Assembly (NCBI GenBank): GCA_004124385.1
Contig: SCKN01000001.1
Span: forward strand, 278,606-342,605
Source of the DNA: Fidelibacterota bacterium
GTDB taxonomy: Bacteria; Fidelibacterota; Marinisomatia; Marinisomatales; TCS55
Reading direction: 5' to 3'
DNA length: 64,000 nucleotides
Translations under genes and position numbers: made by a program
The notes under the pieces: model-generated
Told to the model about the DNA's origin: nothing
What the model saw: only the letters and a program-made list of their open reading frames with translations
Databases searched by the model: none
Shown: in pieces, positions 920 through 43,424 of the stretch
Layout: each line of letters begins with the position of its first letter
How positions within the stretch are numbered: the stretch's first letter is position 1

Positions 920-955
920 AAAATTGAAAAACGATTTAAATCAGAAAAAGAGAAA

Positions 956-1924
956 TCAGGTCCGATGATTATTCAGCATTTCGGTCAACATCTCCAGGTC
1001 GATAGGTACTACACCCACTTCTTCACAGACGCGGCCGGCAGCTAAATTTGCCATTGTGGCTGCTTCTTCCGGTGTCGCTCTGGCTAGGTCGGCAAGTGTA
1101 AAAACTGAAATCACCGTATCACCCGCTCCGGAGACATCGTGAACAGCAAGTGCTTTTGTGGGAATTCTGATAGATTCATCTGCAGTAGTTAAAAGCATAC
1201 CGCTTGCCCCCAATGTAACCAACACAAATTCTACGTCAAGTATTTTTTGCAGTGCTCTGCCGCCATCTTCAATATTAGCTGAATTCATCGCCTGATCAAA
1301 TTCATTAGCATTGGGCTTAAAGAATCGAACACCCTTGAATAAATAAAAATGATCATGTTTTGGATCAACATAAACAGGTACATTATTTTCATTGGCTATT
1401 GATAAAATAGAACCAATCATTTTTTCTGAAAACAATCCTTTATTATAATCGGCCAAAATGATAGCGTCGACATCTTTTATATTTTTTAAAACAGACGCTT
1501 GTACTGCTTCTAAGGATTCGTTGGACAGTTCATCCAATGATTCAAAATCTGTACGGACAACCTGTTGACTATTGGCGATCACTCGTGTTTTTACGGTTGT
1601 TGGACGATTCGTGTCACCAGTAACCGATTCAACATTCATCCCACGTTCAGACATAAGCGTAAGTAATTGTTCACCGTGGATATCATTTCCAACAACTCCA
1701 GCCATGGTGACCTTGGCAGATAATGAAGCAATATTCCAGCCTACATTGGCTGCACCGCCAGGACTATGTGTCACTTCCTTGACAGATACAACTGGAACAG
1801 GCGCTTCAGGTGAAATACGGTTGGCCTGACCCCACATGTACGAGTCCAGCATAAGATCACCCATAACAAGTATATGCTTTTGGCTGAATTGTTCAGCCAG
1901 TGCATGAAAACGCTTACTGTCCAT
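956..1924 (-). CDS. hldA: D-glycero-beta-D-manno-heptose-7-phosphate kinase (RfaE/HldE domain I type)
   Basis: Ribokinase (PfkB) family kinase of about 322 residues that phosphorylates heptose 7-phosphate at C1, a step towards ADP-heptose for the LPS inner core. Seen: GGAANVGWNIA near the N-terminus, DPKHDHF and KPNANEFD typical of RfaE, and the GAGDT catalytic segment near the C-terminus. There is no C-terminal cytidylyl/adenylyltransferase domain, so this is the separate-kinase (HldA) layout and the nucleotidyltransferase must be elsewhere. The frame is open upstream to 2029, but that extension overlaps the PspC gene and is not family-like. I choose the ATG at 1924, whose A overlaps the upstream TAA stop (TAATG), which suggests translational coupling. 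Confidence 0.88.
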   Translation of the reverse strand: MDSKRFHALAEQFSQKHILVMGDLMLDSYMWGQANRISPEAPVPVVSVKEVTHSPGGAANVGWNIASLSAKVTMAGVVGNDIHGEQLLTLMSERGMNVESVTGDTNRPTTVKTRVIANSQQVVRTDFESLDELSNESLEAVQASVLKNIKDVDAIILADYNKGLFSEKMIGSILSIANENNVPVYVDPKHDHFYLFKGVRFFKPNANEFDQAMNSANIEDGGRALQKILDVEFVLVTLGASGMLLTTADESIRIPTKALAVHDVSGAGDTVISVFTLADLARATPEEAATMANLAAGRVCEEVGVVPIDLEMLTEMLNNHRT

Positions 1925-2559
1925 TAAATACGGTCTGACTGTTCGCCTGGCTCTGAAGGCAGAATTAGTGCTAATACAAGATAAAGTAGTATACCAATCC
2001 CGGCACTCATAAAGGTGCCAAACACCCAAAGAAACCGAACCAAGGTACTGTCCACTTGGATGGATTCAGCAATTCCTCCGCAGACACCTGCAATTTTGCT
2101 GTCAGCTTTGGACAGATGCAAGGGTAAACCCGTACCTTCATTCATTATGGATGCTAATTCTGATCGCTTGGTATAAAGCAAATACACACCAAAACCCAAA
2201 ATCGCAATGGCTAGAAACAAGTTTATACTGCTATCCCAAAAACGTGTCCAAATTAAGTATAGAAGATCATTGTGCATAAAAAACAAAATAAGGGCAACGA
2301 AAACCAATAATGCACCCCAAAGAATGGTCTTATCATTCTTTGTACGTGAAACATCATCTCTATCATAATAGGGTGCTGAATATTCATCCGGAAGAACAAT
2401 CATAGCTAAAAAATAAGCTAGAATTCCAGAACCACCAAATAATGTGAAAAATATCCAACCCAATCGAATCAATGATGGATCCAAATTAAAATAATCAGCA
2501 AATCCACCACAGACTCCAGCGATTATTCTATCTTTTCTTGATCGAATTATTCGTTTCAT
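1924..2559 (-). CDS. Membrane protein with two PspC domains
   Basis: A 211-residue protein with PspC-type domains at both ends: residues 1-60 (RIIAGVCGGFADYFNLDPS followed by a hydrophobic segment and IVLPDE) and about 145-205 (KIAGVCGGIAESIQVDSTL followed by LILPSEPGE). Two or three further hydrophobic segments lie between about 75 and 130. PspC domains are known from phage-shock/envelope-stress systems, where they sense membrane state; the role here is inferred from the family only. The two domains look like an internal duplication. It sits between the degenerate ABC ATPase and the heptose kinase on the same strand and overlaps the latter by one base (TAATG). Confidence 0.85.
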   Translation of the reverse strand: MKRIIRSRKDRIIAGVCGGFADYFNLDPSLIRLGWIFFTLFGGSGILAYFLAMIVLPDEYSAPYYDRDDVSRTKNDKTILWGALLVFVALILFFMHNDLLYLIWTRFWDSSINLFLAIAILGFGVYLLYTKRSELASIMNEGTGLPLHLSKADSKIAGVCGGIAESIQVDSTLVRFLWVFGTFMSAGIGILLYLVLALILPSEPGEQSDRI

Positions 2560-2605
2560 GATAAGATTAATTTACTATCTTTTTAGGACACATTAATACA
2601 ATGCA

Positions 2606-3343
2606 TCACTTTTGATTACGTCGATGTTGTTGTTTTCGGTTGTTCTGTGAACGACCTTGATTTCGAGGGGAATTTCTGCTTTGATTTCCAGAACGAATTT
2701 TAGCTATATGTCCATTATCCAAAAAGATCATCACTGAAACCAATTTTTGCAATCGTACTGGGTTTGTGGCAGACATAATAATCGTAGTTCCCAAGTTGCG
2801 ATTCATTCGGCGCAATCGACGGCTGATATCCTTTTCAAGTTCATCATCAAGCATCGCACCGTAATTTTCGATAATTAATACACGTGGATCACTTTCCACA
2901 GCATCTACTAATTTTATCCACCTCAATTCACCTTGCGACAAGGTATCGATGGATTGATCCCACATGTAACGCTTGAAACCATTATTGAAATACTGTTTCC
3001 TAATTTCTTCACTGCGTTTACTGTGGCGACTCTTGAAAAATCTGGATACACTTTCATTATTCTTGTCACCTAATATCGAAACAAACTTGATATCATCTGG
3101 TGATTTAATTTTTCCTAAAATGGATGTTTTAAATTGATTATCATCGTAAAGAAGTTTTCCTTCAGTTGGCTTTTCTAATCCAGAAAGTTGTTTTAATAAT
3201 GACGATTTTCCGGATCCAACTGGACCGACAATTCCATAGATAGTACCTCGATGAATTTGTAGTCTTCCAATTTGGAGGATATTGCGTTGATTGTAAACCT
3301 TTTTAAGGTCCTGTACTTCAAATATAAGCGTTTTTCTATTCAT
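2606..3343 (-). CDS. ABC-type ATPase with degenerate catalytic motifs and basic tail
   Basis: A 245-residue soluble ABC nucleotide-binding domain. Walker A is intact (GPVGSGKSS, residues 40-48) and a signature LSQGE is at 135-139. Other motifs are not normal: Walker B reads VLIIEN (155-160), with Glu in the usual Asp place and Asn in place of the catalytic Glu; the H-loop region reads SATNP with no His; no clear Q-loop Gln is seen. The last 30 residues are Arg/Asn/Gln-rich, a basic tail that could bind nucleic acid or acidic lipid. No permease is encoded next to it. It probably binds ATP but hydrolyses it slowly or not at all. It lies 39 nt downstream of trxB, on the same strand. Confidence 0.75.
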   Translation of the reverse strand: MNRKTLIFEVQDLKKVYNQRNILQIGRLQIHRGTIYGIVGPVGSGKSSLLKQLSGLEKPTEGKLLYDDNQFKTSILGKIKSPDDIKFVSILGDKNNESVSRFFKSRHSKRSEEIRKQYFNNGFKRYMWDQSIDTLSQGELRWIKLVDAVESDPRVLIIENYGAMLDDELEKDISRRLRRMNRNLGTTIIMSATNPVRLQKLVSVMIFLDNGHIAKIRSGNQSRNSPRNQGRSQNNRKQQHRRNQK

Positions 3344-17846: not shown

Positions 17847-19667
17847 TTACTTAAGTATAGATAAAGCTTTTTGAATAATCTCTTTAGCAATCTTTTCAGG
17901 AATTCCTGTTTTTTTGGAAATATTTATTTGATTTGATTTGGCAATCAATTCTGTAGAATCGAAGGATTTTAAAAGTTTCTCTACTCGTTTGGGTCCCATT
18001 CCTTCAATGTCATTAAATATGGATATTAAGCTATCTTTGCGTTTGCTGCGTTGAAATGTAATAGCAAATCGATGTGCTTCATCTCGAATACGCCGTAAAA
18101 GAATTAATCCGGGAGATTGCTTATGAATAGATTGCGGATCAGAAATGCCCGGCACGAATACTTCCTCTAAACGTTTGGCTAATCCCACAATGGGAATATA
18201 GTCCAACCCAAGTTCTCTCAATGCTGATACGGCCATACTTAACTGTCCTTTTCCGCCGTCAATTAAAATGAGATCAGCCAAACTACCCTTCTCCTTTTTT
18301 ACACGTAAATAACGCCTGAAAACAACTTCCCGCATGGCTGCAAAATCATCAATGCCAACTACAGTCTTAATCTTGAATTTCCGATATTCAGATTTCCGTG
18401 CTTTGCCATCCACAAAACATACCATTGACGCGACTGTATTCGTACCGCCCAGATGGGAGACATCAAATGCTTCGATGCGCCGTGGTGGCGCTTTTAACTG
18501 CAAATCTTCTTGGAGTTGATTTACCATTTTCGGTACAAGCTCTCGACGCTTTTTGCGGTTGATCAACCATTCACCCAAAAGCAGCTTAGCATTTTGGTAC
18601 GACATACGAACTTCTTTTGCCTTTTCGCCGCGTTGGGGCTGACGAATGACCACTCTGCTACCCTTCTTTTCTGAAAGCCATTCTTCCAGTTCATCCAGAC
18701 CTTCGGGTAAAACGGATACTGTAATTTCTTTTGGAAGAAAATCCGAATCCATGTAAAAACGGGATATCACTGAAGAATAAACCACCCCTTCATTTTCATC
18801 TACGTTTTGTAATGATACTTTTTCCCGGCCGAAAATGCGTCCATTTCTAATTCGTATAATCGTCATAACTCCAATATCATCTTTTCGTGCTAATGCAAAA
18901 ATATCTCTATCTTCGAAATCAGCTGTTACTTTTCGCTGGCGTTCTTTAAATCGTCTAACAGCGTTATATTGGTCTCGGTACATAGCCGCATCTTCGTAGC
19001 GTAAATCCGCCGCGGCTATGTCCATTTGCTTACGGACATATTCTTCCGTTTCCTTGGTTTGTCCTTGCAAAAATTTTATAACCCTGCCAATCATAGCATT
19101 ATAATGATCTCTACTTACGAGCCCTTCGCACGGACCTTCACATTTATTGATATGATAATCCAGGCACAGTTTCACTTTTTTGGCAGCTACTGATTCATCA
19201 TCCATATAAAAACTACAGCTCCGAACTGGAAAAATCTTGTGCAATGCTTTTAGTGAATATCGGAGACTTTTTACATCGGTGTATGGACCAAAATATTTTG
19301 AACCATCCTTTTCAATTTTCCGTGTAAGAAGTACTTGAGGATAAGGCTCGTTGGTTATACGAATAAATGGAAATGACTTATCATCTTTTAGATCAATATT
19401 GTATTTGGGCTGAATTTCTTTAACCATATTTGCTTCTGTCAGTAACGCTTCCACGCTAGATCGTACAATTATCCACTCCACATCCTCTATTCGTTTTATC
19501 ATGGATTGATTTTTGGGTGTTTGGTATTTATTCTTCTGAAAATATGACCGTACGCGGTTGCGAAGATTTTTAGCCTTTCCGATATATATTATATTCCCAT
19601 CCTTATTTTTAAACTGATATACACCGGGTTTGGTCGGAATATGATTAAGTTTTTCTTTTAAATTCAT
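17847..19667 (-). CDS. uvrC: Excinuclease ABC subunit C
   Basis: A 606-residue nucleotide-excision-repair endonuclease that nicks DNA on both sides of a lesion with UvrAB. Domains: GIY-YIG nuclease (1-90, PGVYQFKNKDGNIIYIGKAK), a Cys-rich region around 150-185, UVR motif (about 200-235), RNase H-like endonuclease (FDVSHLGGTNTVASMV) and C-terminal helix-hairpin-helix (DIEGMGPKRVEKLLKSF). Length is normal. Its start overlaps the stop of the YiiX-like gene as ATGA. Confidence 0.96.
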   Translation of the reverse strand: MNLKEKLNHIPTKPGVYQFKNKDGNIIYIGKAKNLRNRVRSYFQKNKYQTPKNQSMIKRIEDVEWIIVRSSVEALLTEANMVKEIQPKYNIDLKDDKSFPFIRITNEPYPQVLLTRKIEKDGSKYFGPYTDVKSLRYSLKALHKIFPVRSCSFYMDDESVAAKKVKLCLDYHINKCEGPCEGLVSRDHYNAMIGRVIKFLQGQTKETEEYVRKQMDIAAADLRYEDAAMYRDQYNAVRRFKERQRKVTADFEDRDIFALARKDDIGVMTIIRIRNGRIFGREKVSLQNVDENEGVVYSSVISRFYMDSDFLPKEITVSVLPEGLDELEEWLSEKKGSRVVIRQPQRGEKAKEVRMSYQNAKLLLGEWLINRKKRRELVPKMVNQLQEDLQLKAPPRRIEAFDVSHLGGTNTVASMVCFVDGKARKSEYRKFKIKTVVGIDDFAAMREVVFRRYLRVKKEKGSLADLILIDGGKGQLSMAVSALRELGLDYIPIVGLAKRLEEVFVPGISDPQSIHKQSPGLILLRRIRDEAHRFAITFQRSKRKDSLISIFNDIEGMGPKRVEKLLKSFDSTELIAKSNQINISKKTGIPEKIAKEIIQKALSILK

Positions 19668-21289
19668 TCTACTGGGAAAATTTCATTTATTTTATCAGCA
19701 ACTTCCACGCCATCCAGATAAAGTATTATTGCATCAAATGAATCGTAAGCTAGATTTTGAGCTACGTTATCCGGAGAAATTGTATAACGCCCTACCGTTT
19801 TTGTAGTATTCCAATCCAGATCATCAAATGAAACGTAAATGAGTTCCGAACATACAATCTCATTTTTGGATTCCACATCAAAGTTGAAATCATAGCTTTT
19901 GCCGATTTGTGAAAAAGCATTTAATAAATATGATCGTTTATTTTCTAGGGTTAATTCATTATATCGAATAACGCCAAGGTCATCAATATTTAAAAAATGC
20001 TGCAGTGTATTAATCTGAACTCCCGGCCGCAGTGCTTCGATCACCATATGTCCATTTCGAATCGCATCCTGAAAATCTGGTCCCGAATAATGATACGTTT
20101 CTTTTGCTTCATTATAAATAGCAGGAAGTTCATCCCAAACACCTAATTTACTCAATTCTTCCTCCGTACCTGACCAAAGTGCCACATGTGACCAATATCC
20201 GGGAATTAAATAATCTGTTAAACGAAAAGGTGCTTTTTCCAGTAAAATATCCAACGGTTGCAGATTTGCAATAATTTCAGATTGCTTTTCTTTTGGTAAT
20301 TCATCCAACTTACCTCTCCGGGCAACAATGATACCGGCTGCATTACCAAACATTTTACTCACTTGATTGGTAGCATCACTGCTGATTAAACGAATATTGT
20401 CCTCAATTTTATTTTTAAAAATATTTATTCTGTTTATTGAAAACATTGATTTGGTTTCCAGCGAACTGTTCTTTCTAATTTCTGCATAAGACGGACTGCC
20501 GTAGATCATCATATTCAAATACTGGTTATCGGGATCGCTCTGCACCAAATCAGATTTTGGATGATCACTCTCCCACTGTTCGATTTTGGAAATGAATTCG
20601 ATTGCTTTAATCAAGCGCTGCATTTTTTTCCTGTCCGTATAGCTTTCAGAAACAACACGCAAATAACCTTCAACTTCCGGGTCAATTCCGGATTCATTGA
20701 TTATATAACGCAGCTTATTGTGTTCTTCAAACGGTGCTACAGCCACGAGATAATTATCATATAATAATAATGCAAATGTTAAGCCCAGTTTTACTTTTTT
20801 TATTACTGACTGTCCCGATTCATCATTGGGATTGATTTGGATAATTTCTTTTGATTTTCCGCCAAACAATTGCCTTACTTTTTTCTTTTGATGGAAAATC
20901 GAGGGACTAGAATCATTGATGATTAGTTCAACATTTTCATTGGTTAATGGAGCAAATCGAACGATGCCTTCAAGCAACGTTTCCCGTAAGTCTTTATACC
21001 TGTTGGCGGCATAATTCAAGTAATTGATATCCGATGCCTTTAATACAGATTTTTCACTTAATGCTGAATATGTACGGACAGCTCGCACTCGCCAAACAAG
21101 GGCATATTCAATTTGCGGCTGATAGTTGAAAATCATTTCATGAATATCTATATTATCTGATTTCAACCACTCGACAGCAGATATCGAAGATACTTTCTCA
21201 TCAAATTCGATATTTGGATCAATATTTTGACTAATTACGAATGCATTAAAAAGCAAAAATATTAATATATTTAAAGAATAATATTTCAT
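19664..21289 (-). CDS. Secreted protein with C-terminal YiiX/YebB-type permuted NlpC/P60 hydrolase domain
   Basis: A 541-residue protein with a signal peptide (MKYYSLNILIFLLFNAFVIS). The first 330 residues are mostly helical and match no family I recognise. The C-terminal part resembles circularly permuted NlpC/P60 enzymes (YiiX/YaeF group): YWSHVALW with His368, IEAL with Glu418 and VCSELIY with Cys480, so His precedes Cys. Related proteins cleave amide or ester bonds in peptidoglycan or lipid; the substrate here is unknown. It is coupled to uvrC by ATGA, although the functions seem unrelated. Confidence 0.75.
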   Translation of the reverse strand: MKYYSLNILIFLLFNAFVISQNIDPNIEFDEKVSSISAVEWLKSDNIDIHEMIFNYQPQIEYALVWRVRAVRTYSALSEKSVLKASDINYLNYAANRYKDLRETLLEGIVRFAPLTNENVELIINDSSPSIFHQKKKVRQLFGGKSKEIIQINPNDESGQSVIKKVKLGLTFALLLYDNYLVAVAPFEEHNKLRYIINESGIDPEVEGYLRVVSESYTDRKKMQRLIKAIEFISKIEQWESDHPKSDLVQSDPDNQYLNMMIYGSPSYAEIRKNSSLETKSMFSINRINIFKNKIEDNIRLISSDATNQVSKMFGNAAGIIVARRGKLDELPKEKQSEIIANLQPLDILLEKAPFRLTDYLIPGYWSHVALWSGTEEELSKLGVWDELPAIYNEAKETYHYSGPDFQDAIRNGHMVIEALRPGVQINTLQHFLNIDDLGVIRYNELTLENKRSYLLNAFSQIGKSYDFNFDVESKNEIVCSELIYVSFDDLDWNTTKTVGRYTISPDNVAQNLAYDSFDAIILYLDGVEVADKINEIFPVE

Positions 21290-21298
21290 GATGATTTT

Positions 21299-22927
21299 CT
21301 ATTTGATCAAAACTCCTTTTACAACTTTTATTTCATTCTCAAATTTCATTTTAAAATAGTAAATACCCGTAGAAACTTTTTCTCCTGACCACGTAATTGA
21401 ATATTCACCGGGAGCATGAAATTCGTTCACAACTTCATCTACACTTTCACCTCTAATGTTAAAAACATTTACTTTTACAATGCCCTGCTTCGTTAGTGAA
21501 TAGTGCAAAGTCGTCTGGGGATTAAACGGATTGGGATAAAGGGATTGTATTGCAAAATAGTTTGAATTGATTAATTCATCGTCAATTGATTCTACAATAT
21601 AATATGTAGATAAATCAAACGTATCACTTTCTGTAAAATAATGCAAAGTGGCATCGGAAATTCCGGGTAACACACTATTAAGATAACCTGCGTATCCATC
21701 AGGGAATGCATCCAAAATATGTGCATAATTTGATACTGTCATTAAGCCATTTTCATTAATTGAGACTGAACAATTATCATCTAAATAAAAAGCAAATTTA
21801 GGAGGATCAGAAACAATCCCGTACAGTCCGCCGATAATACGGTTCGGGAAATAATAATAATCAGTCCACATTTTTGGAATAATAACCACATCCGGCACAC
21901 TCGTATCACCTACGGTTGTACCTAACCCGCCATACCACCAATTGTCCGAATCTCCTGTAATTCCTGTAACAATAATTTCACCATAATTCTCACTGCTTTG
22001 ATTTGATCCGTTAATCGTTAAATCAGAATAATTATTAAGATATTCGTAGGGCATTTCATAATAAGACATATTCTCACCGGGGTCTACTAAAACTCGATTA
22101 TCAATATCATACACTGCGCCATGAAGCAGCTGATGAAATTTCAAGTGCGTAAATCGCAGCGGTTCAGCCGGCACGCAGTATAATTCTGTATCATCAGTTT
22201 GGTGAATGACTGTAATCATTTTACCATAAACGGTGCCGATCCTGTCTTGATCTATGCAAAATGCAGTTTTGATTCCCATCCCCAATCCTAAAATATCTTC
22301 GCCATGATCTTGGGCTCTCCTGGCAACCATCGTAACCAATCTCCCCAGTCGTCCACGGTCATTGAAATGGGAATCTGTGAGAACGCCTGAAAGTATATCT
22401 AAAAAATCGTCTGTAAATGAAATCCGGGGATGATACGGATTTGCTATGGCTTGATCCGATGTTAATGATCCATTCTCCGCATCAAACACGATTCCTCCTA
22501 AAATGGCCAATCCGGCGCTCGTACCGCCAATGACTCCGCCATTATTGAACACCACATGAATAGCAGAATCAACCAATGTTCCTTTCCATGTCTGTACATA
22601 ATCCCATTGGTCACCTCCCTCAATAAAGATACCATCAGCTGTAACTAGATCATGATATACATTTTGACTATTTGCCGAAAATATGTTGGGAATTTGTAAT
22701 TCATGACTGGATGAATCTGCACCCAGATTAATAAAATATGCCGGATACCAATCACTGGCTTCAGACACATCTATATTTACAATTTTACCTGAATCTGCCT
22801 GTTGTACAAACCAGCCGTAAGGATCATCTGACCAGCCACCGTAACTTTCGGCATTTCCCCCCACAAGCATGACAGAACCTTGGGCAGATAAACGAGTCAT
22901 TAAATAAAAAAGATAAAATTTCCTCAT
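21299..22927 (-). CDS. Cyanophycinase-like S51 peptidase with T9SS sorting domain
   Basis: A 542-residue secreted protein. After a short signal, residues 17-260 look like peptidase S51/cyanophycinase: VMLVGGNAE, FIEGGDQW, nucleophile elbow GGTSAGLA with Ser137, and the family segment DSHFNDRGRLGRL. The last 80 residues are a T9SS type A sorting domain (LYPNPFNPQTTLHYSL, then TGIYYFKM), so the enzyme is exported to the surface or medium. Extracellular cyanophycinases release Asp-Arg dipeptides from cyanophycin; other S51 members are dipeptidases, so the substrate is open. It is coupled to serC by ATGA. Confidence 0.87.
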   Translation of the reverse strand: MRKFYLFYLMTRLSAQGSVMLVGGNAESYGGWSDDPYGWFVQQADSGKIVNIDVSEASDWYPAYFINLGADSSSHELQIPNIFSANSQNVYHDLVTADGIFIEGGDQWDYVQTWKGTLVDSAIHVVFNNGGVIGGTSAGLAILGGIVFDAENGSLTSDQAIANPYHPRISFTDDFLDILSGVLTDSHFNDRGRLGRLVTMVARRAQDHGEDILGLGMGIKTAFCIDQDRIGTVYGKMITVIHQTDDTELYCVPAEPLRFTHLKFHQLLHGAVYDIDNRVLVDPGENMSYYEMPYEYLNNYSDLTINGSNQSSENYGEIIVTGITGDSDNWWYGGLGTTVGDTSVPDVVIIPKMWTDYYYFPNRIIGGLYGIVSDPPKFAFYLDDNCSVSINENGLMTVSNYAHILDAFPDGYAGYLNSVLPGISDATLHYFTESDTFDLSTYYIVESIDDELINSNYFAIQSLYPNPFNPQTTLHYSLTKQGIVKVNVFNIRGESVDEVVNEFHAPGEYSITWSGEKVSTGIYYFKMKFENEIKVVKGVLIK

Positions 22928-33118: not shown

Positions 33119-36100
33119 TTATTTAAGTAATATCATTTTTTGCGCTTTCTGAAATGTACTTGATTCAAAACGCGCAAAGTATAATCCGGTAGCAACCACC
33201 TTTCCGTTATTATCTAATCCATCCCATTTTATATCATGATAACCAGCATTAATTTCTTTGTTTAATAATGTTTTCACTTCTCGTCCACTCAAATCATAAA
33301 TCACAACATTCAACTTCGTCTTAATCGGGATATCGAACTGAATGGAGGTTCTCATGTTAAATGGGTTCGGAAAATTGGGATACACTTTAAACACTTGGGG
33401 AATTGGCAGAATATCAAATTCATATTTACCGGTTATAACTTCCAATCCATTATTATCAAAAAACCGAACAGAAGCTAAAACTGAAACCAAATTTCTATTT
33501 GAAGATGATATTTGAAATTGAAATGTTGAATCCGGTATATTATTGAGGTTCGCAAATGAAACAAACTGTATTTGCGTTAAGGTATCAAATACACTTAATA
33601 CCATTCGGTTAGTGGTAGATTGAGCTGATAATTTTATATTTGAAGAAGAATTTGAATAATCGAAAACGATTTCTCCCGCTGTAATGTTTTCTCCAATGTG
33701 TATAACCAAATTCTGATCTACAATTTCACTCTTTAACTGTATATTTTTTAAAGTTGAAAATGCAGGGATTTTTGCATTCAGTTTATAATTCCATGTCCAC
33801 ATTTGTGCAAATATAGCCATATCTCTTAAATTTGATATACCATCTAAATTAGGCTTCATATACGGGACATCACCAACCATTGGAGCTAAATCTATATTTG
33901 GCCAAGTCGTATTAAATTCTACAACATCCAAAACATCCAGAAAATAATCTTCATTTAAATCCCCCCAAAATGTGCTGTATAATACGAATGTATCATTCGT
34001 TGTTAATTCATTTAATGATATTAAATCAGTTAACTCAATTCGTAACGCATCTGAAGTAAACAATGTCGAATCCAATGTAATAGTTAGAACACTGTCTGAA
34101 TATGAATCACTGAATGTTAATGTATCTGAATATTCTGAAATAATGTTAACATTATAACTCACCACATCTTTATTAAAATAAATAGTTATTTCTTCAGGTT
34201 CAAATACACCGATATACTCAGATAATTCCGGATTAATATTCACGATTGAAATCGGCTCATTGTCGTATACGATTCCATCCGCTGTAGATATATCTGATTC
34301 ATTCCCAGCAAAATCTATTGCTCTTACACTCGTATAATAGCTAATCTGATTCTGTAAAGACAAATTTATAAACTGGAAGGAATCTATTTCGGCACTTACC
34401 GTTTTCCAATCGCTTACTTCTTGTCCGCCGGGAGAAGTTCCAATGCAAACATTAAAATAATCTATGCCAATATTATCGCTAAAATCACTCCATCTAATGT
34501 CTAAAAATGTAGAATCCAATGCCCAATCGAGTTCATTCTCTAAATCGAAGCCATCGTAAACATTTCCTGCTTCCGGTTGAGTGAGATCAACGAGAAAACC
34601 ATCGCCGGATAATGTATCAGAAATATTCCCGGCGGAATCAACAGCAAACACATTCCCTAGATAAAGAACGTTTTCATCTAATGTTAGATTTTCAATGAAT
34701 ACTTGAGTGTCAGCATTCATTTCAGTCCAATTAAAAAAGTCATCATTGCCGGCGGACGTACCAATACCATAGAAGTGATTTTGAATTCCGGATATAGCAT
34801 CTGATCCATCCCACTTCAGCCATAATGACGAATTATCATTTAAATAATCTAAATCTTCATCAACATCCCCCTCAATAAGTGCATTGACTTCCGGTTTTGT
34901 ATAATCAATAATGACTTGGCTTGCATTCGTCGTTTCAGTATAAATATCGCTTGAGTTTCCAGCAGAATCAACAATTCCTATTTCAAAAACAACGATTCCT
35001 TCCGGATCATTAGTGTTTACATTGAAATTACCATACCAATTGCCTGCTTCATCAATAACTTCTACACTGTCATTATTGATAAGCATATAAACACTTCGAA
35101 ACACTTCATCAAAAGTTATATTCACATATATTTGGTCATTTAACGTTGCATAATTATTTGAATTATTATCAGACGTTATTTCTACACTCGTTAATACCGG
35201 AATTGTCTCATCAATTAATAGTGTATCATTACTAACCGTTCCCATTTTAGAATTCCCGGCTATATCAGAAATGATAGCGATAAATTGAGCTGTGCTTTCT
35301 TCAACAAACCCATCCAATGCCATAAATTCTTCTTCGGTAAATGACAATTGAAGCATCGTGTTTACGTTCTCTTCATTCAGCGTAGTTTGACCTCCAATCT
35401 GTTCATAATCTCCATTATCAAGACTGACATACACAATGATTTTCCCCTGCACCAAACTGGAATCCAAATCAATCGGTACTGTAACTAATACATTTTGATT
35501 AGTACTATTCCAATATCCTTCATACACATCGCCGCCATCTGCAACGACAATTCCAACTGTGAAATCAGCCGGCGGACTGAGATCATATATTACACCGGTA
35601 TTATTTGTTGTTTCGGTTGTGTTACCCGTATTTCCCACATTATCTTCAAAAAGTATAGAGAAAGAGACAAGCCCTTCAGTTTCATTCTCGACCAGAATAT
35701 ATTGAGCACGATATACATTATTTCCCAATGAGTCTATATCTGCCAGCTGATTTAAAATGGTAGCTGAAATATTTTGACATGTTTCTGATAAATGAAAATC
35801 CAAGATCATTACATCGCTTACTATAGCCAATGTTGTATCTTCATTATTCGATGCAATGGAGCAGTAAATTGAAGTTGGGACAGTACCGTCATAACGTACA
35901 TAACTTGCATCCGTCACAGAAATTAAATTATCATATTCATTATTATTAAAATCTGTATAGTCGATGTTAAAATTTATTAATCCTTCGGAATCTCCTTCTT
36001 GAGTAATTATTAACATTGTATACTGATTTTCACCCAAATCTGATATAGTTGCAATTTTATTGTTTATATATGAATTATTAAAAAGTATGGGCATATTTGA

Positions 36101-39100
36101 TGAAATAGTTACTGTAATTGTATCTCCAATTTTTGCTAATGTATCACCATAGTTATTGTTTGATCTAATTAAAACAGATTCAATTTCAGGACCAGCTGTA
36201 CTATTATTTACAAAGCTGCCATCTGTTGTTTGGGTGATTTCCGCCGTTAAATTTCTGGCCGTATCTCCCGCAACTAAAGTAAACTCAACAAGACCTTCCG
36301 GTTCTTGTCCTGTCATTATTCTCCAAAAAGACAGATCTGCATTGTCGGACTCAAAAATATTAACAGCAAATGTTCCAATGGTTGAAGAAAGAGTGTCAAT
36401 CATTTCTGTTGTACTGCATGAAATAAAAACAGTATCTCCGGGAATTGAAATTGTTGAATCTGCATTACTGGAAAAAATCGTAATTGGATTTAATATCGGT
36501 TGAGTTTGATCTATATGAATAATATTTCCACTATTAGACCCCGTTGTTGAATTTCCTGCTATATCTGTTAAAATTGCATAAAATTCAGCATTACCGTTTT
36601 CAACAAATCCAGCTAATGATTCAAATTGATCGGCCGAAAATGTTGATGATGTTTCTATATTTACGGATGTTATTTCCGTACTACCTCCGAGAGGTTCACC
36701 AACTCCACCATCAAAAACGGTATAGATTTGATAAGAACCGCCCACAAGAGATTCATCATTATCCAATGGTATCATTACCTTTAATAAAGTATTCGAACTA
36801 TTCCAAAAATTACTTGCTAATAAACCACCCGATGGATTTACAATTCCCAATTGAAATGCTACTGGCAGTGTTCTGTCATATGTTACCGTCGAATTATCGG
36901 TTGATGAATTTACCGACGTTCCCTGATTTCCGGACATATCTGAAAAATCAATGGAAAAAGGTATGATTCCTTCATCATCTGTAGAACTTGTAACGATAAA
37001 TGAGGAAAAGCTTAAATCATCACCTGAATTCGTTACAGTGGCAGCTTTGTTTAAAATAAAAACAGTCGGATTTTGGATGGATTCATCTGCTGTAAAATAA
37101 ACCCAAACTGTATCTGATTCTTTAGCATAAGCTGTATTTAAATTATTAGAAATGGTTAGGACAGAACTTAACAAGGGCGCAGTTTTATCTATGACTACAA
37201 CACTTCCGTCAGATGTAGATGTGATTTCACTTGTCATGTTTCTAGCAGTATCTCCTGCAATGATTGTAAATGGAACATTACCACTGGAATAATCTTCTGT
37301 AACTATATCCCACACTTTATAATCTAAGTTGTTTGAACTGCTTCCTTCAAAATTGAATGTACTGATAGTTGAATAAACAGAGTCTATAGCTTCTGTAGCT
37401 GTAAATGATATAAAGACTGTATCACCTGGAATAGCCATAGCATTATTCAAATTACTAGAATAAATAGAAACTGGATTTATAGTTGGTGAAATTTGATCAA
37501 TCAATAAAATATTTGCACTTTCACTCCCTTCCGTTTCATTCCCCGGACGATCTGCTAGAACAGCCTTAAAAGAGATTCTTTCACCTTCATCAAATCCCGT
37601 AATTGCTTCAACCTGTGCAGACGTAAATGACATTGTTTTAGTTAAACCAAATTCAGTTGAGTAAGTAAAGGCAGCAGATCCTAGCGTTTCATAATCATTC
37701 GATCCAATTTTCGTCCATACTTGTGCTCTGCCATTATACATAGAAGCATCGTCCGGAATAGGAATCGTTAGATCCAATCCCGTATTATTTGAATTCCAAT
37801 AATCACTTACGACGATTTCACCTGTGGCAATGACTTCTCCTACAGTAAAATCAATAGGTGGAGTAATGTCGTATATTACAGAACTGCCATCTGTCGTTGA
37901 ACTCACTACGACTCCATCATTCCCCGCTGAATCTGAAAAAGATATTTCAAAAGTAATAATTCCTTCCGGATCAGTAATAGTCATATCATAAGTTGCAAAA
38001 AAGGAAACACTATCTAAAAAAGACAAATTGCCAGTTTGGTTTACAAACAATACTGATGCAGTTTTTATTGGTTCGGATACCCCAGTAGATAAATGAATTG
38101 TATCACCTTCTTTTGCCCAAGCACTATCCCAAATATTAAAGGATTGTATTACAACCATACTTAAAATTGGAGCCGTATTATCAATGATGACATTACTCCC
38201 ATCAGTTGTGTTTGGTGAATCTGTATACGTATTGTTGTATGTATCCACATATGAAATCGAATAGGTAACAATTCCATCCGTCTCACTCCCATCCAATGTC
38301 ACTGTTGCTCGATAAGCATTCCCGGCAATATTGGTTACGACAGCATTTTGACCAGACATTGCTACAGTTGATGAAACAATTTCTTCACCGGAGGTAAAAT
38401 CCAAATACACAGCATCTCCAGTTCGTGCATAATGTGTTACAGCATTATTTGAGGAAATAGAAATGATGGAAGGTGGTGTGGCAATATATTCTAAAAATAT
38501 CGTCGTCGTACTTGGTGTTCCAGTAGATACATTTCCGGCATTATCTAAAATCTTTGCACCTAATGTTACTGTTAATGAATCTGCAAACCCCGGCAATGAT
38601 TCAAACTCATTTTCGGTAACAATAGCAAGATTTGTTCCCAAAGTAACATCGGCCAGTGAAATTGTATCTAATTGTCCTATATCAGAGTAAGCTGCTCCAT
38701 TTACACTGCCGGTTAATTGAACATAAGCACCAGTCAATGTTGTATAATCATATTGTGCTTCAACAAAGTCGATTGGAGAATCTCCTGTACTCCACGAGGA
38801 TCCATTCATTGTACCATTATTACTATTGGAACTATTATCATTAATAGTATTTCCACTACCCTCATCGCATTTCCAATACCCTACTAATCCAGTTTCAGTT
38901 CCTGAGAATGAAGAATTCATATAGCCCTGCAATTGAGCACCGGTTCGTGCCACATTCCATATCCTCAATTCATCTATACTTCCGTCAAAATATGTATCCG
39001 TACCGTTCCGAGAAAATGATCCTAACGTTAAATTTGTTGGTATATTTGAATAATCAATATTTCCCGTCACAACAGCTGTACTTGCCAAAACACCATCTTT

Positions 39101-40414
39101 ATACAACTTTACTTCTGATCCATCATAAACAGCTGCAATATGTGTCCACACACCTACTTGCGTAGAAACAACAGGATAATTATTATATTCACTTTGTGTA
39201 TAATCACCTGTCTCTATAAAGAAATGCCATCCTGACCCAAAATATACAAAACCATAGCCAGATTTACTTTCTCCTTGATCAAACGCATGTTGAAATAAAC
39301 CATCATAATCCGAATAAGAATCCGGTTTTATCCAAAGTTCAACTGTCAGTGAATTAAGAGGTCTTAATTCAATCGCCGATGGAATTGTTACATTATCATT
39401 TGTTCCGTCATAATTCAATGAATTGCCTGAAGTATAATTAAAACTTGTTACAGCTGAATCTGCAGGTAGAGGGATTGCAATTTCCAAGGCAGCATTTGTA
39501 CTGTTCCACACGGCTCCCTGAACAACTCCGCCCGTGACAGTAACATCCCCAACTGTAAAATCACCCGGACCTGATCGATCTACAATAACGATACTTCCGT
39601 CAGTTGTTGACGAAACAGGAGTTCCGTCAATTCCAGATTGATCTTTAAAAATAACAACAAAAGAAATTGGACCTTCTTGATCCGTTTCTTGAACAGTGTA
39701 GGATGCTGACCATTGTAAACCTCCACCTAAATCTGTGGGCGTAATTTCTGTTGATCCAATAATAACAGTTGCTTCTGATAATGCACTATTAGATGAAAAC
39801 GTAACTGTAACCACATCACCTGTTCCGGCCTGTCCGCTGTTTAATGCATTATTAGACGAAATTGTTACAGAATTCAATTGCGGTAATAAGACAACTTTTA
39901 CATTATCAATATCCCAGGAATTAATATAATAACTATTCAACCCATATGCTCTAAAGCCTAATTGAATAGAATCACTTACAGCAGCTAAATAACTTTGAGT
40001 ACTCAAAGGAAAATCCGCATCTACACCGGGTAAAACCTGATAGTTTAAAACTTCTTGCCAGATATTACTTCCGGCAATTCTATACTCGATAGCTAAACCT
40101 TCATTCGCACTTGCATTTGCCTGCCAAAAATCCAGCTCCATATCAAAAAATACTTTAACCTGATCTTCTGATCCGACGGAAATATTGGGTGTCGTCAAAC
40201 GAAAAGAATAATTTGATTGAGCTGGACTATAATAAAAGTATGCGCCCGGAGAAGGATTTCCTATTTGGTGACCGGAAAAACCAGTAGATCCTACACCCCA
40301 ATTACCGGAAAAAGACCACCCGGTCGGTTGAGCACCTGAATCAAATCCTTCTTCAAATAAAATCTGACCAGACAAGAATGAAAATAGTGCTGATAAAAGA
40401 ACTGTATTACGCAT
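33119..40414 (-). CDS. Giant T9SS surface protein (2431 aa) with Ig-like repeats, LamG, dockerin-like and sorting domains
   Basis: A secreted giant. Order: signal peptide (1-17); jelly-roll adhesin-like domain (18-178, EEGFDSGAQPTGWSFSGNWG); nine type-A Ig-like repeats of about 95 residues, each with an S-x-N-x-x core such as VTISSNNAL, AKEGDTI or PGDTVFIS and ending in TDGS.V.D; at least four longer type-B modules starting DFTVG; a LamG/concanavalin-like domain (about 330-540) set inside the first type-B module; two fibronectin-like modules; an SbsA-like Ig domain; a dockerin-like Ca-binding pair (about 2150-2205, GDLNEDYFLDVLDV and PNLDGISNLRDM); a beta domain; T9SS type A domain (2341-2431). 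Probable adhesin or matrix protein; no catalytic motif seen. Last gene of a five-gene operon, 5 nt after the cohesin-like gene. Confidence 0.92.
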   Translation of the reverse strand: MRNTVLLSALFSFLSGQILFEEGFDSGAQPTGWSFSGNWGVGSTGFSGHQIGNPSPGAYFYYSPAQSNYSFRLTTPNISVGSEDQVKVFFDMELDFWQANASANEGLAIEYRIAGSNIWQEVLNYQVLPGVDADFPLSTQSYLAAVSDSIQLGFRAYGLNSYYINSWDIDNVKVVLLPQLNSVTISSNNALNSGQAGTGDVVTVTFSSNSALSEATVIIGSTEITPTDLGGGLQWSASYTVQETDQEGPISFVVIFKDQSGIDGTPVSSTTDGSIVIVDRSGPGDFTVGDVTVTGGVVQGAVWNSTNAALEIAIPLPADSAVTSFNYTSGNSLNYDGTNDNVTIPSAIELRPLNSLTVELWIKPDSYSDYDGLFQHAFDQGESKSGYGFVYFGSGWHFFIETGDYTQSEYNNYPVVSTQVGVWTHIAAVYDGSEVKLYKDGVLASTAVVTGNIDYSNIPTNLTLGSFSRNGTDTYFDGSIDELRIWNVARTGAQLQGYMNSSFSGTETGLVGYWKCDEGSGNTINDNSSNSNNGTMNGSSWSTGDSPIDFVEAQYDYTTLTGAYVQLTGSVNGAAYSDIGQLDTISLADVTLGTNLAIVTENEFESLPGFADSLTVTLGAKILDNAGNVSTGTPSTTTIFLEYIATPPSIISISSNNAVTHYARTGDAVYLDFTSGEEIVSSTVAMSGQNAVVTNIAGNAYRATVTLDGSETDGIVTYSISYVDTYNNTYTDSPNTTDGSNVIIDNTAPILSMVVIQSFNIWDSAWAKEGDTIHLSTGVSEPIKTASVLFVNQTGNLSFLDSVSFFATYDMTITDPEGIITFEISFSDSAGNDGVVVSSTTDGSSVIYDITPPIDFTVGEVIATGEIVVSDYWNSNNTGLDLTIPIPDDASMYNGRAQVWTKIGSNDYETLGSAAFTYSTEFGLTKTMSFTSAQVEAITGFDEGERISFKAVLADRPGNETEGSESANILLIDQISPTINPVSIYSSNLNNAMAIPGDTVFISFTATEAIDSVYSTISTFNFEGSSSNNLDYKVWDIVTEDYSSGNVPFTIIAGDTARNMTSEITSTSDGSVVVIDKTAPLLSSVLTISNNLNTAYAKESDTVWVYFTADESIQNPTVFILNKAATVTNSGDDLSFSSFIVTSSTDDEGIIPFSIDFSDMSGNQGTSVNSSTDNSTVTYDRTLPVAFQLGIVNPSGGLLASNFWNSSNTLLKVMIPLDNDESLVGGSYQIYTVFDGGVGEPLGGSTEITSVNIETSSTFSADQFESLAGFVENGNAEFYAILTDIAGNSTTGSNSGNIIHIDQTQPILNPITIFSSNADSTISIPGDTVFISCSTTEMIDTLSSTIGTFAVNIFESDNADLSFWRIMTGQEPEGLVEFTLVAGDTARNLTAEITQTTDGSFVNNSTAGPEIESVLIRSNNNYGDTLAKIGDTITVTISSNMPILFNNSYINNKIATISDLGENQYTMLIITQEGDSEGLINFNIDYTDFNNNEYDNLISVTDASYVRYDGTVPTSIYCSIASNNEDTTLAIVSDVMILDFHLSETCQNISATILNQLADIDSLGNNVYRAQYILVENETEGLVSFSILFEDNVGNTGNTTETTNNTGVIYDLSPPADFTVGIVVADGGDVYEGYWNSTNQNVLVTVPIDLDSSLVQGKIIVYVSLDNGDYEQIGGQTTLNEENVNTMLQLSFTEEEFMALDGFVEESTAQFIAIISDIAGNSKMGTVSNDTLLIDETIPVLTSVEITSDNNSNNYATLNDQIYVNITFDEVFRSVYMLINNDSVEVIDEAGNWYGNFNVNTNDPEGIVVFEIGIVDSAGNSSDIYTETTNASQVIIDYTKPEVNALIEGDVDEDLDYLNDNSSLWLKWDGSDAISGIQNHFYGIGTSAGNDDFFNWTEMNADTQVFIENLTLDENVLYLGNVFAVDSAGNISDTLSGDGFLVDLTQPEAGNVYDGFDLENELDWALDSTFLDIRWSDFSDNIGIDYFNVCIGTSPGGQEVSDWKTVSAEIDSFQFINLSLQNQISYYTSVRAIDFAGNESDISTADGIVYDNEPISIVNINPELSEYIGVFEPEEITIYFNKDVVSYNVNIISEYSDTLTFSDSYSDSVLTITLDSTLFTSDALRIELTDLISLNELTTNDTFVLYSTFWGDLNEDYFLDVLDVVEFNTTWPNIDLAPMVGDVPYMKPNLDGISNLRDMAIFAQMWTWNYKLNAKIPAFSTLKNIQLKSEIVDQNLVIHIGENITAGEIVFDYSNSSSNIKLSAQSTTNRMVLSVFDTLTQIQFVSFANLNNIPDSTFQFQISSSNRNLVSVLASVRFFDNNGLEVITGKYEFDILPIPQVFKVYPNFPNPFNMRTSIQFDIPIKTKLNVVIYDLSGREVKTLLNKEINAGYHDIKWDGLDNNGKVVATGLYFARFESSTFQKAQKMILLK

Positions 40415-40419
40415 TGTAC

Positions 40420-40974
40420 TTACTGAATGATAACGGTTGATCCGCGAACACCTTTTAAAGGAATCACTTGATCTGCCGGAGTCACAAGTTCAGATTCAGT
40501 AGAATCTATAGTTATATCTGAAGTGGAGGCAGTTAATGCTGAAAAATATATATCAGCGACATGACCCGTTTGGTCGACATAAGAAAATTGATCTCCGAGA
40601 TAAAATACATTTATATCAATTTGTCCTTCAGAAATATCATTAGTAAAAAGAGGCGTTACCACACCATCGTTAGTAAATAATATTCCGGGAGTAATCGTAT
40701 CCGGCACCATATTTGAAACATCGTAATATAATCGTGCATGAATTCCGGCCAGAGTGGTGTCCGGTTTTACGATAAATAGACTCACCGTAAATTGTTCGTT
40801 TACAGATGCTTCAATTGTTAGCGGATATAAGGTTAATGCCGGCGGGAAAACATCAGCCTCTTCATTGGCGATAGTATCAATAGGATTGTCTAATTCCAAT
40901 TCAAACGTCTCACAGGATTGACTAATCAATAATGTGAGAAATATAAATAAATATATCGATTTTTGTGATTTCAT
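40420..40974 (-). CDS. Lipoprotein with a cohesin-like domain
   Basis: A 184-residue protein. Lipobox SQSC (about Cys21) and a Asp/Glu-rich linker are followed by one beta-sandwich: VNEQFTVSLFIVKPDTTLAG, then IHARLYYDVSNMVPDTITPG and VADIYFSALT. This is the strand pattern of cohesins (anchor on early strands, YDxxxxxxxxxxxPG). Cohesins bind dockerins; the giant protein encoded next door has a dockerin-like pair, so this could tether it to the outer membrane. Cohesin assignment is inference from pattern. It shares ATGA with the upstream gene. Confidence 0.72.
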   Translation of the reverse strand: MKSQKSIYLFIFLTLLISQSCETFELELDNPIDTIANEEADVFPPALTLYPLTIEASVNEQFTVSLFIVKPDTTLAGIHARLYYDVSNMVPDTITPGILFTNDGVVTPLFTNDISEGQIDINVFYLGDQFSYVDQTGHVADIYFSALTASTSDITIDSTESELVTPADQVIPLKGVRGSTVIIQ

Positions 40975-41936
40975 TCAGAAAGAAATTCTGAAACAGATTT
41001 AATTATTGAAGGTGAATCAGGTGGGTCGGGTCCATAAAGATTTGCTTTAGGTCTGGGCGCAATCATATAGGCATGAATCGCATTTATTGCCCAAATCACG
41101 CCGGCACTTTTCGCCAGTAATATCATTGCATTATTTGCATCAATATGCTGTTTCCAATACATTTTCGACCCGTTTCTATAATTAATAATATCTTCTTCAT
41201 TTGTACTCGAATGATATAGACTTGAAAATTTATTCATATTTTCAACAGACGTATTGTATTTAGAAACATTGTATAATAATAAACTGGCCAAGAGTCCTTC
41301 TAATGAAGGAAAAGCAATGCCGGTATTTCTTTTTTCAGAATAAAACTGTCCCCATCCCGGCAATACGGCAGATCGCCACATTGCGCCTAAAGGTGTTTTA
41401 GCTTCAACAATCAATTCACCGTTTTTAGGTAAAGCATTTATTCTTTCCTGTTTAAGAAACCCGGGAGTATTTTTACCTAATAATTCCCACATGGCAATTT
41501 GTGATTCTAAAGATATTAAACTAAAAACATCTTCTAAATAAACATCAATAACACTTACAACACTAGACGATCGACTGGAAATTATTTTACTTGACAAATG
41601 AAAACCAATGCTGTCCAAATTCACATTTCCCATCATCAAATAGTCAACATGAAGATATTTTCCTAATTTCCCAGCATCATCAGGAGAATTAAATAATTCA
41701 TGAATATTTTTAGTATAATCTAGCGTATTAAGTGCTTCAACAATTTGAATAGAATCTAAAATGGTAATATTATCCATTTTGGAAATGTCATCAATTCCTC
41801 GTGAATACTCTTTGAATTTATCATTTGAAATAACGGATGATTCTTGAAAATTCAGAATGGCAAGGCTACCAATAATTTCATCTGCATAAGAAAATGAAAC
41901 TGATATAAAAATGATGACGAATACTAATTTCTGCAT
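40971..41936 (-). CDS. Membrane-associated protein with TolB/CsgG-like N-terminus and DUF5683-like C-terminus
   Basis: A 321-residue protein with signal peptide (1-18). Residues 20-130 (GSLAILNFQESSVISNDKFK, KYLHVDYLMMGNVNLD) resemble the alpha/beta fold of CsgG/TolB-N-like domains common in FCB envelope proteins. Residues 180-300 hold GAMWRSAVLPGWGQFYSEKRNTGI and later helices, the signature of DUF5683-like membrane proteins. Function unknown; members sit beside outer-membrane and T9SS genes. In an operon between the PEGA protein (7 nt away) and the cohesin-like lipoprotein (ATGA). Confidence 0.78.
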   Translation of the reverse strand: MQKLVFVIIFISVSFSYADEIIGSLAILNFQESSVISNDKFKEYSRGIDDISKMDNITILDSIQIVEALNTLDYTKNIHELFNSPDDAGKLGKYLHVDYLMMGNVNLDSIGFHLSSKIISSRSSSVVSVIDVYLEDVFSLISLESQIAMWELLGKNTPGFLKQERINALPKNGELIVEAKTPLGAMWRSAVLPGWGQFYSEKRNTGIAFPSLEGLLASLLLYNVSKYNTSVENMNKFSSLYHSSTNEEDIINYRNGSKMYWKQHIDANNAMILLAKSAGVIWAINAIHAYMIAPRPKANLYGPDPPDSPSIIKSVSEFLSE

Positions 41937-41943
41937 TCCGTTA

Positions 41944-42444
41944 CTAATCTATATTATTTTCTTCGATTAATATTTCATTTTGTTGCGGCTTCTGCCTGGA
42001 ATAAACAAATTCCATATTGCGATTAACTTGAATTATTTGTTCATCAAACAAGTGTCCATTTTCATAAACACGCAACGTATGTTTTCCGGATTCTAAAATT
42101 AATTTAATTCTATTGTCCACCCAACTATGTTCATCGTTCAATTCAAAAGTTAAACCTTGATCTTTTGATCTAAATTTGACTTTATATAATGGATTTAATA
42201 CAAACTTAATTTTTACTCTCTTTACATCTTGCACAAATAATTCATGCGTCACGGGAGCATATTCCCCTGATGAAATATGTAGAGTATAATTACCGGGAGT
42301 AACTTTAAAAGCCAGTATAGGCGTTTCACCAATAGATGCTCCGTTTAACCGCACAGTGGAACCACTTGGAATAGAATTAATATCTAATAATACCTGTGAA
42401 AATAGCAGATGACTTATGATGGAAATAATCAACGTTATTCTCAT
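41944..42444 (-). CDS. PEGA-domain secreted protein
   Basis: A 166-residue protein with signal peptide (1-16) and an N-terminal PEGA domain: LLDINSIPSGSTVRLNGASI, then GETP and VTPGNYTLHIS, followed by a second, similar beta segment (FELNDEHSWVDNRIKLILES, GKHTLRVYENGHLF). PEGA domains bind surface-layer or carbohydrate partners and are common in envelope machines. The C-terminus is short and polar (EENNID). ATGA overlap with the upstream lipoprotein gene. Confidence 0.82.
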   Translation of the reverse strand: MRITLIISIISHLLFSQVLLDINSIPSGSTVRLNGASIGETPILAFKVTPGNYTLHISSGEYAPVTHELFVQDVKRVKIKFVLNPLYKVKFRSKDQGLTFELNDEHSWVDNRIKLILESGKHTLRVYENGHLFDEQIIQVNRNMEFVYSRQKPQQNEILIEENNID

Positions 42445-43424
42445 TGAATCTCATCTCCATATCCGCTTAAATAAAGATTAATATCGCCAATCCAAATAAC
42501 ATCCTTTGCATTAACCCATCCTGTAATATTCACAGATTTATGAGTTTCATAAAATACTTCAACTTGCCCTAATAATCTATTCCCTGCCACACGAGATACA
42601 GCAACTAATTCATTCATACTCAATAAGAATTGTGTTTCTGATCCGTTAAAAGGTTCTTTTCGATAATGGGTTAAATCATTTTGAACAATATAAAAATTAC
42701 CTTCTTCCATAAACTGTTTACTAGGTCCGACCAATATATCAGAAACAGTTGAAAAAGATCCTTTAAAATCAATATTATTTTGGGAAACATGAAATGGACT
42801 GCCCTCACCTGAAACTATTTTCAAATTGTTGTAATAAAAATATTCATTTGGCATTTTGATTTCATATTCTCCATACATATTCGTGTATTCGCTAAATTTA
42901 TTTCCAAGAGAGTCTATAATAGCAACAGGAAAATGGGCGAGTGGTTCTCCATCAAATCTCTTTGAAACCAGCCCACTGACGATGGCAGGTCTTTTATTAA
43001 TTACCGTATGGGGTAAAACAATTTCACCATATCGTATTCCTGCAAACTTGAATACGATTGGACTATAATTTCTACCAATTGGCGTTAAAATTAATGTATT
43101 ACCATTCACTTCTAAAGATAATGAATTCTGCGGTAGGTATACTTCAATTGGCTCTCCTACCATATACTGAATTCCACTTATAATTGGAGAATTGTCACTT
43201 GTTTTTATTACTTGCAGATCAAAATAATCAGGTGAAGCATTTACCAATTGAACTGGAGTAATAATGTGAATTTCGCCATACGTCTGACGGACAGAAACAT
43301 ATGGTCTTTTAAAAGTATAAATGGGTTGATCATATTTTGGAGCTAACATGTAGCCACACCCATTGATTAATAAAGTTAAAATAAATAAAAAGCTAAATAA
43401 TATTTTTTTGTTTATTATTAGCAT
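42441..43424 (-). CDS. Lipoprotein with carboxypeptidase-regulatory-like domain
   Basis: A 327-residue lipoprotein (lipobox LINGC, about Cys23). Segments: an N-terminal beta domain (about 40-140), a carboxypeptidase-regulatory-like/CNA-B-type sandwich (about 148-215, AIVSGLVSKRFDGEPLAHFP, GEYEIKMP), and a C-terminal SH3-like stretch (GQVEVFYETHKSVNITGWVN, DVIWIG). No catalytic motif. First gene of the envelope operon ending with the giant surface protein; it is likely an outer-membrane-anchored structural part. Family not recognised beyond these domains. Confidence 0.78.
   Translation of the reverse strand: MLIINKKILFSFLFILTLLINGCGYMLAPKYDQPIYTFKRPYVSVRQTYGEIHIITPVQLVNASPDYFDLQVIKTSDNSPIISGIQYMVGEPIEVYLPQNSLSLEVNGNTLILTPIGRNYSPIVFKFAGIRYGEIVLPHTVINKRPAIVSGLVSKRFDGEPLAHFPVAIIDSLGNKFSEYTNMYGEYEIKMPNEYFYYNNLKIVSGEGSPFHVSQNNIDFKGSFSTVSDILVGPSKQFMEEGNFYIVQNDLTHYRKEPFNGSETQFLLSMNELVAVSRVAGNRLLGQVEVFYETHKSVNITGWVNAKDVIWIGDINLYLSGYGDEIQ

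Follow-up and report, generated by a model that had tools for sequence, protein, structure and literature searches.

The run of five open reading frames at 33119-43424 on the minus strand of the window (by which we mean the whole 64,000-nucleotide stretch of DNA that was analyzed) ends in the gene for a giant protein and raises the question of whether its members form a dedicated anchoring and secretion set for that protein, as the first-pass annotation had supposed. The five genes lie head to tail and each starts with ATG (Table 1). Read from 5' to 3', the LP and PEGA genes overlap by 4 nt, followed by a 7-nt gap, a second 4-nt overlap and a 5-nt gap between COH and the giant; the tight same-strand spacing that had been annotated was seen, with gaps of 5-7 nt rather than 4 to 7 nt. 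A thioesterase gene (43499) adjoins the operon 74 nt upstream and a PepA gene (33032) 86 nt downstream. Promoter and terminator scans of the operon gave signals no commoner than in shuffled sequence, and no Rfam elements were found in it. The source genome is 2.09 Mb in 11 contigs and 96.8% complete. A 542-aa open reading frame elsewhere in the window (21299-22927, minus strand) is another T9SS cargo, with a tail of 33.3 bits.

Table 1. Features of the five-gene operon (positions in the window)
Feature	Position	Strand	Marks or basis
LP, 327-aa lipoprotein	42441..43424	-	lipobox LINGC, Cys23
PEGA-domain protein, 166 aa	41944..42444	-	signal peptide; PF08308
DUF5683 protein, 321 aa	40971..41936	-	signal peptide; PF18935
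COH, 184-aa cohesin lipoprotein	40420..40974	-	Cys21; family-level PF00963
Giant, 2431 aa	33119..40414	-	Pfam/NCBIfam and sequence reading
Dockerin-like module of giant	33755..33988	-	alignment, loop statistics, PDB profile matches
X domain, then T9SS type A sorting tail of giant	33122..33754	-	FlgD_ig and Por_Secre_tail in 11/11 members

Recurrence of the cassette and its upstream neighbours

The unit which recurs is a DUF5683 gene followed by the gene for a cohesin lipoprotein and then by that for a giant which bears a dockerin-like module and ends in a T9SS tail. Searches of 130 genomes of the order with profiles for COH, the dockerin module and DUF5683 found COH in 75 of them, often in several copies, and DUF5683 lay directly upstream on the same strand for 107 of the 121 COH matches. 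Where COH and a listed dockerin match occurred on one contig (n = 51) the two were always on the same strand, and the dockerin lay downstream within 16 kb, about the span of one gene, in 49 cases. In the loci which were read (40 non-window loci and 20 more, the latter partly from other classes), DUF5683 stood immediately upstream of 74 of 76 COH genes and a dockerin protein was found within the next two genes for 43 of the 46 COH loci with intact downstream DNA. Among the 40 loci a first set is biased, as it was picked partly for a nearby dockerin; a second set was drawn from COH matches without a listed dockerin, and in it the giant was mostly cut by the contig or its dockerin fell below the listing threshold. 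The genes typically overlap or lie a few nucleotides apart. Other classes of the phylum have the cassette too, and single genomes hold several copies at different loci with different giant bodies, so that the annotated system for "one giant adhesin" had to be given up.

The order LP-PEGA-DUF5683-COH, followed by the giant except in some loci where it was lost to contig ends, was kept in 21 loci including the window when neighbourhoods were mapped in genomes of the order. The 20 other genomes belong to two families (genus g2 of the window's family and many genera of family f13), and co-occurrence was far above chance in the conserved-neighbourhood search that had been suggested for this locus. 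LP was present in 67 of the 130 genomes, and 21 LP loci had the cassette versus 38 without an adjoining DUF5683, COH or giant gene. LP and PEGA were fused in six relatives. In the window's genus and one sister genus the two are a single protein, and the cassette is missing from that place. Because of these 38 loci and the fusions in genus mates we do not regard LP and PEGA as dedicated to the giant: they are older neighbours, which in most genomes are present with no giant, and the five genes as one conserved unit were ruled out. What stands of the proposed dedicated five-gene set is what looks like an anchoring set for a giant secreted protein, from which LP and PEGA are separable. A profile search did not find COH in five genus mates of the source genome, although three of the five had a dockerin match. 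A 645-aa gene adjoining LP in many genomes was considered as a partner and reads as an unrelated acetyl-CoA synthetase.

At family level the middle domain of LP is transthyretin/CarboxypepD_reg-like (Pfam CarboxypepD_reg in 17 of 24 relatives) and its C-terminal domain SH3-like (SH3_3 in 2 of 24), and the LP profile matches transthyretin-like proteins in PDB. The PEGA protein matched PF08308 with 56.7 bits (2.2e-15; domain at about 42190-42387). In other families and classes PEGA sits within the DUF5683 protein, between an LpoB/CsgG-like part and DUF5683. Fusions of these kinds tie LP, PEGA and DUF5683 together functionally in a weak sense, since PEGA is a common domain.

Domains and parallel divergence of the cassette proteins

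Behind an N-terminal signal peptide the giant carries a LamG domain (Pfam, 97.2 bits, about 38930-39409), Ig-like repeats with a VxxDxTxP motif about every 100 aa, the dockerin-like module, the X domain and the T9SS tail; Pfam also gave FlgD_ig with 42.1 bits. The tail scored 29 bits against TIGR04183 (cut-off 23) at about 33131-33373, and 36.9 bits in a genome-wide search, so that, as in other T9SS cargo, the very C-terminus carries a sorting domain that passes the cut-off. From the LamG and Ig-like architecture we infer the label of adhesin for this putative surface protein.

Pfam alone misses the dockerin in the window giant (PF00404, best value 0.17). By the standard for type I dockerins (two F-hand calcium loops, D1-x-[ND]3-x-[DN]5...D12, with a helix after each), loop 1 of the giant, DLNEDYFLDVLD, is a complete 12-residue loop, and loop 2, KPNLDGISNLRD, is partial, with the first Asp missing. 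Across 43 dockerin modules Asp1 of loop 1 was kept in 42 and Asp12 in all; in loop 2 positions 5, 9 and 12 were kept and position 1 mostly not. A profile of 13 relatives had three PDB matches at E up to 10, all of them dockerins (5n5p, 2y3n, 1daq). The description "dockerin-like" thus holds at family level.

A T9SS tail was present on 45 of 46 cassette dockerin proteins, and the 46th ends at a contig cut. The dockerin ended 206-225 residues from the C-terminus (244-248 in four proteins), a distance unaffected by total lengths which ranged from 271 to 4386 aa, some of them partial. The bodies sampled comprised LamG, Ig-like, kelch, beta-propeller, FG-GAP and beta-helix folds, the last with one pectinesterase-type match. 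Because the distance from dockerin to tail is fixed while bodies and lengths differ, dockerin, X domain and tail seem to form a C-terminal address which is portable between bodies. The X domain was also considered as a hidden second cohesin, which was ruled out by an hhalign probability of 2.4%.

The window COH scored 22.2 bits against PF00963, under the cut-off of 24.1 (domain at about 40471-40812). PF00963 was matched in 10 of 14 close relatives (best 1.7e-9), and homologues from other cassettes passed it at 34.7-40.5 bits. The best PDB match of the COH profile was a cohesin; E-values in the PDB searches with the cohesin and dockerin profiles were weak (6e-4 and 9e-3). The annotation of this protein as cohesin-like was accordingly borne out for the family. 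A lipobox Cys after a hydrophobic stretch was kept in 75 of 76 COH homologues. Single-sequence AlphaFold models of cohesin and dockerin had pLDDT values of 34 and 49, too low for use.

Pairwise distances of COH and dockerin were correlated across 42 complete cassettes (rho 0.66; 0.74 among non-window cassettes), a value reached in none of 1000 permutations, and the partial correlation given DUF5683 and tail was 0.57; shared descent of linked genes also lifts such correlations and is not fully removed here. The correlation of COH with DUF5683 was 0.56 (0.75 among non-window cassettes). That of COH with the T9SS tail was only 0.17 (0.32 among non-window cassettes), though tail and dockerin sit on one polypeptide, and this low value may partly reflect saturation. 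The parallel divergence of COH and dockerin fits a matched pair.

The DUF5683 protein of the window belongs to its family with 31.5 bits against PF18935 (cut-off 26.7), which was matched in 15 of 15 relatives at E up to 0.1. The domain is C-terminal (about 41058-41399) and contains two hydrophobic segments by hydropathy. It is the part held in common with the DUF5683/LIC11435 family, whereas the cassette version is joined to an LpoB/CsgG-like domain, in relatives to PEGA as well, and its gene is tied to cohesin genes. The N-terminal domain of outgroup homologues matched both LpoB (26-65 bits) and CsgG (31-44 bits) over cut-off; the window protein itself had no match to PF03783 or PF13036 over cut-off. 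Only an alpha/beta domain, over part of the profile, is shared with LpoB and with CsgG of curli secretion, and no curli genes were seen in the operon. A literature search found no published function for DUF5683 and nothing else relevant; if the attachment model set out below is true, the cassette gives this domain its first functional context.

In a second cassette type of family f13 the gene immediately before DUF5683 encodes a secreted, conserved protein of about 166-174 aa (L098:2420-2920, L101, L105, L106, L108, L110). The protein ends in DNP(L/F)KQF or similar and had no clear Pfam match. Adenylate-cyclase/CHASE2-type proteins (851 and 779 aa; L117, L120) were found by sequence reading just upstream of some f13 cassettes.

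The source genome has T9SS machinery (SprA 693.7 bits against a cut-off of 200; three C25 peptidases), and these core genes are located elsewhere in the genome, so that the secretion set which had been annotated finds no support. There were 77 T9SS tails over cut-off in this genome versus only two dockerin-module matches, of which the first lies in the window giant and the second where contig 1 begins, and the dockerin is therefore not general to T9SS cargo. The contig-1 protein (positions 1-3200) is a second dockerin/T9SS protein, cut by the contig start; no second cohesin lipoprotein was found, either beside this protein or elsewhere in the assembly. Contig 10 encodes, at 19633-22890, a scaffoldin-like protein of 1114 aa that has a T9SS tail and four stretches resembling cohesins, which is unlinked to the operon and is a possible alternative dockerin partner.

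Proposed attachment of the giant and competing explanations

We consider it probable that each giant, once exported by the T9SS, is held through its dockerin by a cohesin of its own which is anchored to the cell, binding and surface location being predicted from the gene order, domain families, T9SS tails and parallel divergence, which were established by computation. The giant would be made with a signal peptide and exported by the T9SS through its C-terminal tail. The tail would then be removed and the dockerin, about 210 residues from the end of the giant, would stay near the new C-terminus, from where it may plug into the cohesin of the lipoprotein whose gene immediately precedes that of the giant. 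That the cohesin is exposed on the surface and that the giant is adhesive are both presumed. The DUF5683 protein is probably a cassette-specific helper which places the lipoprotein or assembles the pair, and LP and PEGA may be accessory envelope proteins taken on in the window's lineage.

A broader proposal, which we hold to be evenly balanced, is that of a phylum-wide display system in which every giant T9SS cargo is supplied with a separate lipid-anchored cohesin and a separate DUF5683/LpoB-like/PEGA assembly factor. Classical T9SS cargo is anchored on lipopolysaccharide; if the broader proposal is true, cells could show several different giants next to one another, and each would sit on a matched protein anchor instead.

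The main rival to attachment on the cell is that COH acts as a periplasmic escort, which holds the dockerin inside the outer membrane before export, with final attachment by the usual type A sortase route. The default orientation of a lipoprotein is indeed periplasm-facing, no complete giant has lost its normal T9SS tail, and the LpoB/CsgG-like and membrane-spanning parts of the DUF5683 partner suit a periplasmic complex. However, about 75 other T9SS proteins of the genome manage without a dockerin, and export escorts are usually shared and seldom re-encoded for each client, so that we judge an escort unlikely.

An assembly of cellulosome type, with a multi-cohesin scaffold to which the dockerin giants attach and with the single-cohesin lipoprotein as just one among several receptors, seems to us quite improbable. 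It would account for the T9SS protein with four cohesin-like domains, and for Cloacimonadota a scaffold has been proposed whose cohesins are joined to a C-terminal sorting domain (PMC8542988), but every giant gene has a single-cohesin gene of its own next to it and the genome has only two dockerin matches. No multi-cohesin scaffoldin collecting dockerin enzymes is found at the locus, Pfam gave no glycosidase in the window giant, and among the bodies sampled (Ig, LamG, kelch and propeller folds) there was a single pectinesterase-type match. Least credible to us is that the linkage is only inherited, the cohesin-fold and dockerin-like modules being structural and not binding each other. Cohesin folds are also known without dockerins, and the Pfam scores of the window's cohesin and dockerin copies are weak. 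Against this, the order is kept across several families and classes, in multiple copies, loci and giant bodies, dockerin loop 1 is kept, and the cohesin tracks the dockerin much better than the tail.

Known systems and related arrangements

Cellulosomes are the best-known setting of cohesin-dockerin pairs, and non-cellulosomal cohesin and dockerin modules were reportedly described by Peer et al. in 2009. Like the latter, the cassette has a cohesin fold and a dockerin-like module in a setting other than the breakdown of plant walls, but it differs in its fixed operon, with one lipid-anchored cohesin, one T9SS-exported dockerin giant and a DUF5683 gene in front. With T9SS type A cargo (TIGR04183/PF18962) the giant shares the signal peptide and the C-terminal sorting tail; it differs in having a dockerin and an X domain at a fixed distance before the tail, and the linked cohesin lipoprotein would offer it a second, protein-based anchor. 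The nearest published system is the putative cellulosome-like complex of Ca. Stygibacter (Cloacimonadota), in which one 3755-aa tandem-cohesin scaffold collects enzymes (PMC8542988). As here, a single organism there combines cohesins and dockerins with a C-terminal sorting domain, but the scaffold is built in the reverse sense: in the cassette the T9SS tail is on the dockerin partner and each single-cohesin lipoprotein has its own giant.

The literature search found no cassette of this composition and no paper joining Marinimicrobia and dockerin. The parts of the cassette are of known kinds and their fixed combination was absent from the literature searched, in agreement with the earlier remark that no such system was described. 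If the attachment model is true it represents a second, general use of cohesin-dockerin pairs, coupled to type IX secretion, for the anchoring of giant surface proteins. It would also supply many matched pairs for specificity studies and predict the proteins which decorate the cells of a lineage that is apparently uncultured.

In 20 genomes of another phylum cohesins were common, in tandem and within T9SS proteins, and none of the eight loci read there held a DUF5683-cohesin-dockerin cassette. Loci L238-L245 (genomes G246-G262) contained clustered T9SS proteins with one or two cohesin-like domains each, beside a small double-cohesin protein. A wider DUF5683 search of genome contigs gave one locus, L032 (9695-15251), with high GC and apparently from another phylum. 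Genes for a PEGA-DUF5683 protein, a lipoprotein with a DNPLD motif and fn3 domains, and a T9SS-tailed fn3 protein are consecutive there, with no cohesin, and the locus is possibly a cohesin-free analogue of the cassette.
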